A DNA stretch of 64,000 nt from an uncultured Flammeovirgaceae bacterium (lineage in GTDB: Bacteria; Bacteroidota; Bacteroidia; Cytophagales; Cyclobacteriaceae). Of this stretch, positions 55,171 to 55,443 are shown piece after piece. A program made the position numbers and the translations under genes. The stretch covers positions 1 through 64,000 of the forward strand of contig CAKZYA010000022.1 of NCBI GenBank assembly GCA_937883755.1. Direction: 5' to 3'. Position 1 is the stretch's first letter; every line of letters begins with the position of its first letter. The notes under the pieces are model-generated. The model was not told the DNA's origin and made no database searches. It saw only the letters and a list, made by a program, of their open reading frames with translations.

Positions 55171-55278
55171 TGATTTATAAAGAAGTGCGGAGAGACAGGC
55201 TCAATGAAGCACTAGCAACCTTCCTGCAACTAGGAAAGGTGCTAAATCCTGATTCGCCCCGGCGGAGAATATAAATTA
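55171..55278 (+). promoter_or_regulatory. SAM-I (S-box) riboswitch
   Basis: The segment has the SAM-I core in order: P1 5' strand (TGATTTATA, 55171-55179), AAGAAGTGCGGAGAGACAGG, TCAATGAAGC, ACTAGCAACC, P3 (CTTCC...GGAAAG), AGGTGCTAAATCCTG, a P4 hairpin (TTCGCCCCGGCGG) and the P1 3' strand (TATAAATTA, 55270-55278), which pairs with the 5' strand. It binds S-adenosylmethionine and should lower expression of metY-metX when SAM is plentiful. It lies upstream of O-acetylhomoserine sulfhydrylase, a classic SAM-I target in Bacteroidota. Confidence 0.9.
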
Positions 55279-55283
55279 ACATT

Positions 55284-55382
55284 ATGCAGCATCTACAACC
55301 GCTTCCGTTTTTACTTTCCTTCCAGCGAATGTCCGTATCAGCAGATTTGGCTATGCCAAGTATGGAGTGTTGTTGCTGCTAG
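55284..55382 (+). CDS. Candidate Cys leader peptide (32 residues) between riboswitch and metY
   Basis: A frame from ATG 55284 to TAG 55380-55382 starts 6 nt after the riboswitch and encodes a peptide ending AMPSMECCCC. Its last four sense codons are Cys (TGT TGT TGC TGC, 55368-55379). Tandem codons for the pathway's own amino acid directly before a stop are the mark of an attenuation leader. Stalling when Cys-tRNA is short would place the ribosome over the segment 55392-55402, which is complementary to the riboswitch 3' part. O-acetylhomoserine sulfhydrylase uses sulphide (or a thiol), so a Cys signal makes sense. It is 61 nt before metY. Translation is not proven. Confidence 0.62.
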   Translation: MQHLQPLPFLLSFQRMSVSADLAMPSMECCCC

Positions 55383-55391
55383 CCCCAAATT

Positions 55392-55402
55392 TTCTCCGCC
55401 GG
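55392..55402 (+). promoter_or_regulatory. Segment complementary to the riboswitch 3' region
   Basis: TTCTCCGCCGG (55392-55402) is perfectly complementary over 11 bases to CCGGCGGAGAA (55259-55269), which covers the P4 3' arm and runs up to the P1 3' strand of the SAM-I aptamer. The two can pair only if the aptamer is partly unfolded, so this is a candidate expression platform. It begins 9 nt after the stop codon of the Cys leader frame, within reach of a ribosome stalled there. Confidence 0.55.
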
Positions 55403-55443
55403 AATTCACATCATAACCAATAACCCCGTAAACTTTATACATT

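Follow-up and report, generated by a model that had tools for sequence, protein, structure and literature searches.

What does a metY leader read before the gene that follows it is expressed? In the window, by which we mean the whole stretch of 64,000 nucleotides analysed in this work, metY is preceded by a SAM-I riboswitch aptamer and by a short upstream open reading frame (uORF) that ends in cysteine codons, an arrangement from which the original prediction had derived a joint logic, with SAM and cysteine supply both being checked in one leader. Comparing this locus with SAM-I leaders across related genomes and across the class, we consider it fairly likely that the metY leader acts as an RNA switch with two inputs in series, in which a SAM gate would be followed by a reading of Cys and Met tRNA charging and metY would be switched on when both signals are low. 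Judged from these sequence comparisons, a methionine-gene leader probably checks two sulfur signals before expression in many Bacteroidota.

The aptamer, from P1 to P4, lies at positions 55172-55277 of the forward strand. Here a covariance-model search returned a match to RF00162 that spans model positions 1-108 of 108 and scores 79.4 bits (E 4.8e-17, gathering score 44.4), in full agreement with the canonical SAM-I aptamer that had been proposed at 55171-55278. It is the single SAM-I match in the 7.6 Mb genome of the organism, and RF00162 is the sole family matched in the 64 kb window at Rfam gathering thresholds, with neither a tandem riboswitch nor a T-box in the leader. The 3' strand of P1, TATAAATTAA (55270-55279, forward strand), doubles as the upstream portion of the region where uORF translation would initiate, with 4 nt between its end and the AUG. 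The uORF itself (55284-55382, forward strand) opens six nt beyond the aptamer end and has 32 codons, encoding the putative leader peptide MQHLQPLPFLLSFQRMSVSADLAMPSMECCCC; four Cys codons, TGT TGT TGC TGC (55368-55379, forward strand), abut its TAG stop at 55380-55382 and constitute the proposed sensor of tRNA supply. The frame, its terminal Cys codons and its stop are as they had been predicted, and both its position and its tail are conserved. Between the uORF stop and metY stands an untranslated stretch of 61 nt (55383-55443, forward strand; A20 C20 G4 T17), a candidate Rho-loading region. metY (55444-56766, forward strand) encodes an O-acetylhomoserine/O-acetylserine sulfhydrylase (TIGR01326, 674 bits, cut-off 495), and 2 nt after it begins a metX-like homoserine O-acetyltransferase gene (56769-57809, forward strand) whose best match, TIGR01392 at 345.6 bits, falls under the cut-off of 500.

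Upstream of the aptamer, a pattern match to TTTG-N20-TATACTTG (55101-55132, forward strand) identifies a candidate Bacteroidota promoter, which is weak on its own because the pattern has four matches in the window and 2.8 are expected by chance; on the spacing that we take to apply, transcription would then start at ~55138-55141. Further upstream of the metY leader, a gene for an rve-type (integrase core) transposase occupies 53618-54439 of the minus strand, and small minus-strand frames behind it, to ~55054, had no Pfam match. The interval from 53618 to ~55054 is probably an insertion element whose end lies shortly before the metY promoter region.

To place this leader among its relatives, SAM-I matches were collected from 52 of 59 related genomes, the organism's own included (113 matches, 109 of them used), and 34 of the 109 loci precede a metY of >58% identity. 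Named MetY loci were in addition selected on the protein sequence, as the best 80 of 591 confirmed ones, and 51 of these 80 have a SAM-I aptamer upstream within the fetched stretch. Of the 29 named metY loci in which no aptamer was matched, 8 were also searched for SAM-I below the threshold, and none showed one at E 0.05. After removal of one duplicate (L121, the same as L051), and with two viral-contig loci left out of the leader analysis, 84 non-redundant SAM-I/metY leaders remain, the counts of which are counts of sequences and not of independent events. The first frame had to open with an ATG at 4-25 nt beyond the aptamer, its tail was taken as the last 15 codons, and 100 rounds of dinucleotide shuffles served as the control. 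Such an ATG opens at least 15 codons in 65/84 leaders (shuffle mean 12, maximum 20). The comparison of related metY leaders that had been called for, looking for conserved Cys codons near the stop, recovers them: at least three Cys plus Met codons lie in the tail in 53/84 leaders (shuffle mean 0.67, maximum 4), and at least three consecutive Cys codons in 38/84 (shuffle mean 0.01, maximum 1). The tail criterion varies slightly with the rule applied, from 53/84 by ATG interval to 55/84 when the frame is anchored on P1, the latter rule being that used in the class-wide sample described below. Records with a Cys/Met tail include Pedobacter, Mucilaginibacter, Hymenobacter, Pontibacter, Bernardetia, Haliscomenobacter and Lewinella.

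The same association is obtained when the Cys codons themselves are taken as the starting point. A run of three or more TGY codons occurs in 42/84 leaders, 39 of which have an ATG at +4 to +25, and the run is in frame with this ATG and the frame open in 39/39. Among the others, L110 and L117 have a frame that begins immediately behind a later TATAAATT; L148 combines a P1 strand of the GATRAG type (see below) and a terminator with a Cys-run frame much further downstream. A stop follows the run directly in 21 of the 42 leaders and within two codons in 33. Genome-wide, four TGY codons followed by TRR occur seven times in the organism's own genome, and the copy at metY is the only one with which an ATG frame of at least 20 codons closes; at another occurrence, L193, the ATG frame has 16 codons. 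Long ATG frames with this ending number 1/7 in the own genome, 1/8 in G003, 3/9 in G030 and 0/3 in both G018 and G010, and all five of those found in the five genomes searched sit in SAM-I leaders.

Leaders that keep the riboswitch and lack the frame or the run had been named as evidence that would refute a joint SAM/Cys control. These do occur, in 11 leaders of one P1 type (GATRAG) and 12/63 of another (TATAAR), those of the latter kind including L043, L047 and L065, all three from the window's own family; the joint claim is still supported, and the sequence of P1 predicts which metY SAM-I leaders carry the uORF. Where the P1 strand reads GATRAG (11/84 metY leaders), an intrinsic terminator is found in 10/11 and a Cys/Met uORF in 0/11; where it reads TATAAR (63/84, four of them with a late strand), the uORF is found in 51/63 and a terminator in 3/63. 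The remaining 10 metY leaders fit neither P1 type, and 4/10 carry the uORF. The leaders of metH are mostly of the GATRAG kind (28/31 among the relatives, 45/52 in the class-wide sample), and in several of them a TCTTTC-n-GATAAG-like segment recurs downstream, where it could be a competitor of P1. The distance between the P1 3' end and the uORF AUG is 3-13 nt in 50/53 leaders (range 3-24), and only 1/53 has a Shine-Dalgarno-like motif before the uORF. Bacteroidetes mRNAs are described, in the accessible sections of PMC6847099, as being without Shine-Dalgarno sequences, and initiation in F. johnsoniae as being tuned by local mRNA structure. Since the P1-AUG distance is short, a Shine-Dalgarno motif almost always absent and initiation in F. 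johnsoniae tuned by local structure, closing of P1 by SAM would be expected to block the uORF.

From the sequence-based parts of this leader, namely the aptamer, the uORF, the codon conservation, the P1 adjacency, the gene specificity and the composition skew, we infer uORF translation, SAM control of its start, ribosome stalling, an involvement of Rho and the direction of the switch, as follows. The SAM-I aptamer would sense SAM, and the SAM-bound P1, whose 3' strand ends a few nt short of the AUG, would thus cover the uORF initiation region and shut off uORF translation; when SAM is low, P1 would open and a ribosome would translate the uORF. If Cys (or Met) tRNA is charged, this ribosome would reach the stop and leave, and transcription into metY would be cut off. 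With charged Cys-tRNA scarce, it would park on the Cys run at the uORF end and allow transcription to continue into metY, most likely because Rho would be blocked on the C-rich, G-poor leader; intrinsic hairpins may take the place of Rho in some lineages. The net logic would be that metY is ON under the conjunction of NOT SAM and uncharged tRNA. The fuller statement, that the P1 helix of a metabolite aptamer is where ribosomes land to translate a sulfur-amino-acid leader peptide, in a gate that is serial rather than parallel, acts most likely via Rho, and is widespread in Bacteroidota and undescribed, is one that we believe slightly more than we doubt.

The best-surviving alternative, which we nevertheless regard as unlikely, is that the two elements act in parallel, with the riboswitch controlling metY by a route of its own, such as an 11-nt anti-aptamer, and the uORF being a conventional Cys attenuator with initiation independent of SAM. 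In the window species the candidate for such a route is strong: TTCTCCGCCGG (55392-55402, forward strand) is a perfect complement of the P4/P1 bases CCGGCGGAGAA (55259-55269) and a possible species-specific anti-aptamer, its score was reached in 0/100 shuffles of the post-stop region of the window, and the minimum free energy of the leader is -81.6 kcal/mol when folded freely vs -64.7 kcal/mol with 55391-55402 kept single-stranded. A parallel arrangement is also favoured by L159 (positions 1700-2530, a Saprospiraceae MAG), where a Cys/Met uORF and then a strong hairpin of 18 kcal/mol followed by T9, resembling an intrinsic terminator, precede metY with no detected SAM-I; as both are kept in this leader without a detected aptamer, the uORF may work alone, and the Cys/Met sensor may also drive a hairpin. 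However, the pairing is not conserved. Although the predicted 11-nt complement of the aptamer 3' part is exact in the window, pairing between the aptamer and the post-stop region is not enriched across 65 leaders (5 at p<=0.05, 3.2 expected), so that this element of the prediction holds for the one leader and does not extend class-wide; the helix may be a species-specific, local addition. Furthermore, two independent elements would need neither the narrow, short distance between P1 and the AUG nor a P1 type that predicts the uORF, both of which are features of the serial gate that we prefer.

The uORF also stands before particular genes. Among the 109 loci of the relatives, and counting frames with at least three Cys/Met codons in the tail, the uORF precedes metY in 29/36 cases, metZ-type genes in 6/15, metX in 0/4 and metH in 0/31. 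It further precedes 2/2 nitrite/sulfite-reductase-domain genes (a label under which Pfam does not separate sulfite from nitrite reductase), 1/1 cysH-type reductase, 3/3 TonB-dependent receptors, 1/1 NhaC-like transporter, 1/2 genes of an ATP-grasp type, the unassigned gene of L078, and, at L016, 1/5 contigs without a called gene, with 0/8 at the remaining loci. Six TATAAA-type metZ leaders in this sample are without a Cys/Met tail. A class-wide sample of 90 genomes was assembled later and yielded 80 loci that were used, two matches below the cut-off and four already in the first set having been left out. In this sample, which is not wholly independent because it includes G048 from the first set and G072 from the window's family, the frame is found at 8/9 metY vs 0/71 other SAM-I loci (Fisher p 3e-10), the latter comprising metH (0/52), metZ (0/8) and others (0/11, including one TonB receptor); the ninth metY, L251, has a short ATG frame further downstream that ends in three Cys, Arg and a stop. 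The joint logic originally proposed, of SAM and Cys supply read in one leader, thus gains support from comparison on two sides: the frame, its P1-adjacent position, its Cys/Met tail and a stop close by are repeatedly found while the interior drifts, and the association, seen at metY and certain other sulfur genes, does not extend to metH (0/31 and 0/52).

The non-metY genes found behind the same SAM-I and Cys uORF arrangement (at L048, L063, L086, L102, L103, L061 and L068) include an NhaC-like transporter, the gene after which has an ATP-grasp domain of the glutathione-synthetase type, and a RimK-like ATP-grasp gene with a luciferase-like monooxygenase gene after it; TonB-dependent receptors and genes with a nitrite/sulfite-reductase domain are also among them. 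We regard the NhaC-like, RimK-like, TonB and reductase-domain targets as candidate sulfur-uptake or sulfur-use genes. In some leaders another gene is interposed: an OsmC-family gene (PF02566) stands between the uORF and metY in L044 (1864-2298, minus strand), L083 (825-1259, plus strand) and L090 (996-1433, plus strand), and a 4Fe-4S ferredoxin-like gene between the uORF and a metZ-type gene in L045 and L082.

These targets bear on the direction of the switch. The same gate could operate in the opposite sense, with a finished uORF (Cys replete) turning metY ON and a stall turning it OFF, such that scarce sulfide would go to Cys first, and we give this version a small chance, below that of parallel elements. 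It would be sensible for MetY alone, which would compete with Cys synthesis for sulfide, but the same uORF precedes cysH-type and nitrite/sulfite-reductase-domain genes, at which an OFF state during Cys shortage would be harmful if they act in sulfate assimilation. Stalling as the ON state is preferred because of these genes, and in the available text of PMC8632094 the Cys-codon attenuator of cysS in Rhodobacterales is likewise read as ON upon stalling.

What selection has kept in the uORF is most apparent from its codons. The 39 Cys runs show 32 codon patterns (TGT 100, TGC 69), and the stops of the 65 frames are likewise mixed (TAA 35, TAG 15, TGA 15). Between close pairs, interiors differ at all three codon positions without a third-position bias, and the Cys tails are mostly kept; a uORF peptide with a function of its own was rejected for this lack of codon-position bias. 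Within the tails Cys is enriched 17-fold and Met 6-fold, every other residue by 1.6-fold or less, and Met codons number 76 in frame vs 5 and 8 in the other frames. The specificity for Cys that had been ascribed to the tail therefore needs to be relaxed, since Met codons replace Cys in some lineages: Met takes over in the tail MSMRMRMHMHLPTC (MSMRMRMHMH) of Sphingobacterium L164, and Met-rich tails are also found in L163 of the Bacteroidales (MAMPMPGC) and in L075 (MRMSMFS). Taken together, we find a short frame that has both a start and a stop and contains consecutive codons for the amino acids of the pathway, in which codon identity appears to be selected rather than the interior or the RNA letters, as judged by synonymous mixing, a drifting interior and the exchange of Met for Cys; this matches a leader peptide whose translation reports on the charging of tRNAs for sulfur amino acids. 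As a separate observation, Met-Arg-Met or Arg-Met-Arg recurs in the tails of L075, L092, L123, L128, L147, L160 and L164, alone or just before the Cys run, and in an alternative frame of L169.

Readings of the tail other than as a sensor of tRNA supply fare poorly against these data. It is very improbable that the poly-Cys nascent chain acts as an arrest peptide responding to metal, sulfide or redox state in place of tRNA charging: Cys runs could bind metals, but the Met-rich tails of L164, L163 and L075 occupy the same position, and the interiors, which would line the exit tunnel, show no conservation. Still harder to sustain is the proposal that TGTTGC repeats are kept as RNA, for pairing with the aptamer GCAAC or with downstream RNA, and not as codons. 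Complementarity of this kind is seen in the single cases L030, L092 and L036, and helices between the Cys run and the post-stop region reach p<=0.05 in 7/65 leaders where 3.2 are expected, which is not a clear enrichment; helices between the aptamer and the run do so in only 2/65 against the same expectation of 3.2, and 32 codon patterns in 39 runs, an ATG frame kept in 39/39 and the replacement of Cys by Met are all contrary to a conserved RNA motif. A chance frame without function, with which an interior devoid of a coding signature would agree, is refuted statistically by poly-Cys frames in 38/84 leaders vs a shuffle maximum of 1/84 and by their repetition at 8/9 metY of the later sample.

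How a ribosome parked on this tail would be converted into expression of metY is suggested by the composition of the leader more than by its folds. Terminator-like hairpins of -8 kcal/mol or lower occur in 21/65 leaders vs 10.3 expected, and none was seen in the window leader; an intrinsic terminator was rejected as the general output, this twofold enrichment being only modest. Mutually exclusive antiterminator and intrinsic terminator structures were likewise sought, and there is no class-wide terminator or alternative helix, nor, in up to 65 leaders, a class-wide leader helix that sequesters the metY start. By contrast with control regions, a content of C at least 1.5 times that of G is found in 34/53 uORF interiors and 30/53 post-stop stretches, vs 7/58 upstream regions of other genes at the named loci, 5/29 metY genes without SAM-I and 2/18 regions upstream of genes in the window. 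A rho gene is present in the organism's own genome, such that, in terms of composition, the features of a Rho-type leader are found together: a C-rich, G-poor stretch after the uORF, no intrinsic terminator and rho. This composition fits Rho loading on untranslated RNA, which would be blocked by a parked ribosome, a control of the tnaC type that PMC1262725 also proposes for actinobacterial leaders with Cys runs.

A hairpin motif, TATGAYCYTGCC-N-GTGACAGG...GGTTACG, was also observed between the uORF stop and metY in L012, L080 and L156, with a similar one in L083 by eye, and its copy in L156 (TATGAYCYTGCC-N-GTGACAGG) had no Rfam match at the gathering threshold. G018 has one exact copy (in the metY leader), G020 and G027 have none and G000 has one with two mismatches; being single-copy in G018, the hairpin is not a genomic repeat there, and in L012, L080 and L156 it may be part of the output structure.

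If the serial gate is correct, it would represent a two-input gate that occurs in nature and combines a riboswitch with a translating ribosome, SAM-I would have an additional expression platform in the control of a uORF start, and the Bacteroidota, whose mRNAs are without Shine-Dalgarno sequences, would have gained a sulfur control analogous to the SAM-I/T-box tandems. The metY leader further offers a system in which to study amino-acid attenuation without intrinsic terminators in Bacteroidota. Each half, the SAM-I riboswitch and the Cys leader peptide, is already known; for the pair, we found no description of a SAM-I leader with a Cys-codon uORF among the matches listed in open-licence PubMed Central, subscription journals and most preprints being outside the scope of that search. 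Leader-peptide attenuation has been suggested in general terms for amino-acid operons of a flavobacterium (PMC9723704, in the sections available).

With the SAM-I (S-box) family RF00162 the metY leader shares a complete aptamer above the gathering score and differs in its platform, which here is a uORF a few nt after P1, whereas GATRAG-type leaders use an intrinsic terminator or an apparent anti-P1 competition. A close likeness for the second half, as far as the excerpts of PMC1262725 extend, is to the actinobacterial cys-operon leaders, which likewise have a short ORF with a Cys run near its stop, no conserved terminator and pyrimidine-rich motifs before the gene, and for which Rho has been suggested; no riboswitch is mentioned in these excerpts, the phylum and genes are others, and the SAM aptamer gate that we propose belongs to the Bacteroidota leader. 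Similarly, the uORFC-8-2 motif upstream of cysS in Rhodobacterales (the accessible part of PMC8632094) combines predicted ribosome-mediated attenuation with tandem Cys codons, but has an intrinsic terminator, serves an aminoacyl-tRNA synthetase gene and comes with no mention of a SAM aptamer in that part. Interplay between a riboswitch and a translated uORF is known from the B12 leaders of M. tuberculosis (PMC11260477), which respond to a different ligand, with no amino-acid codon run mentioned in the text available, and in which ppe2 is controlled through termination-reinitiation at overlapping stop and start codons. In Xanthomonas, a SAM-I leader has a second, tRNA-type input, the uncharged initiator tRNA; its platform, however, binds tRNA directly and exerts Shine-Dalgarno control on the gene itself, and a term search of the main text of PMC7270179 gave no uORF or leader peptide. 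Finally, the tandems of SAM-I with a Met T-box have the same predicted logic, being ON with low SAM and uncharged tRNA, and a term search of the main text of PMC9481103 gave no 'leader peptide', 'uORF' or 'Bacteroid'; T-boxes bind tRNA directly, whereas in the metY leader it would be a translating ribosome that reads the supply, mainly of Cys.
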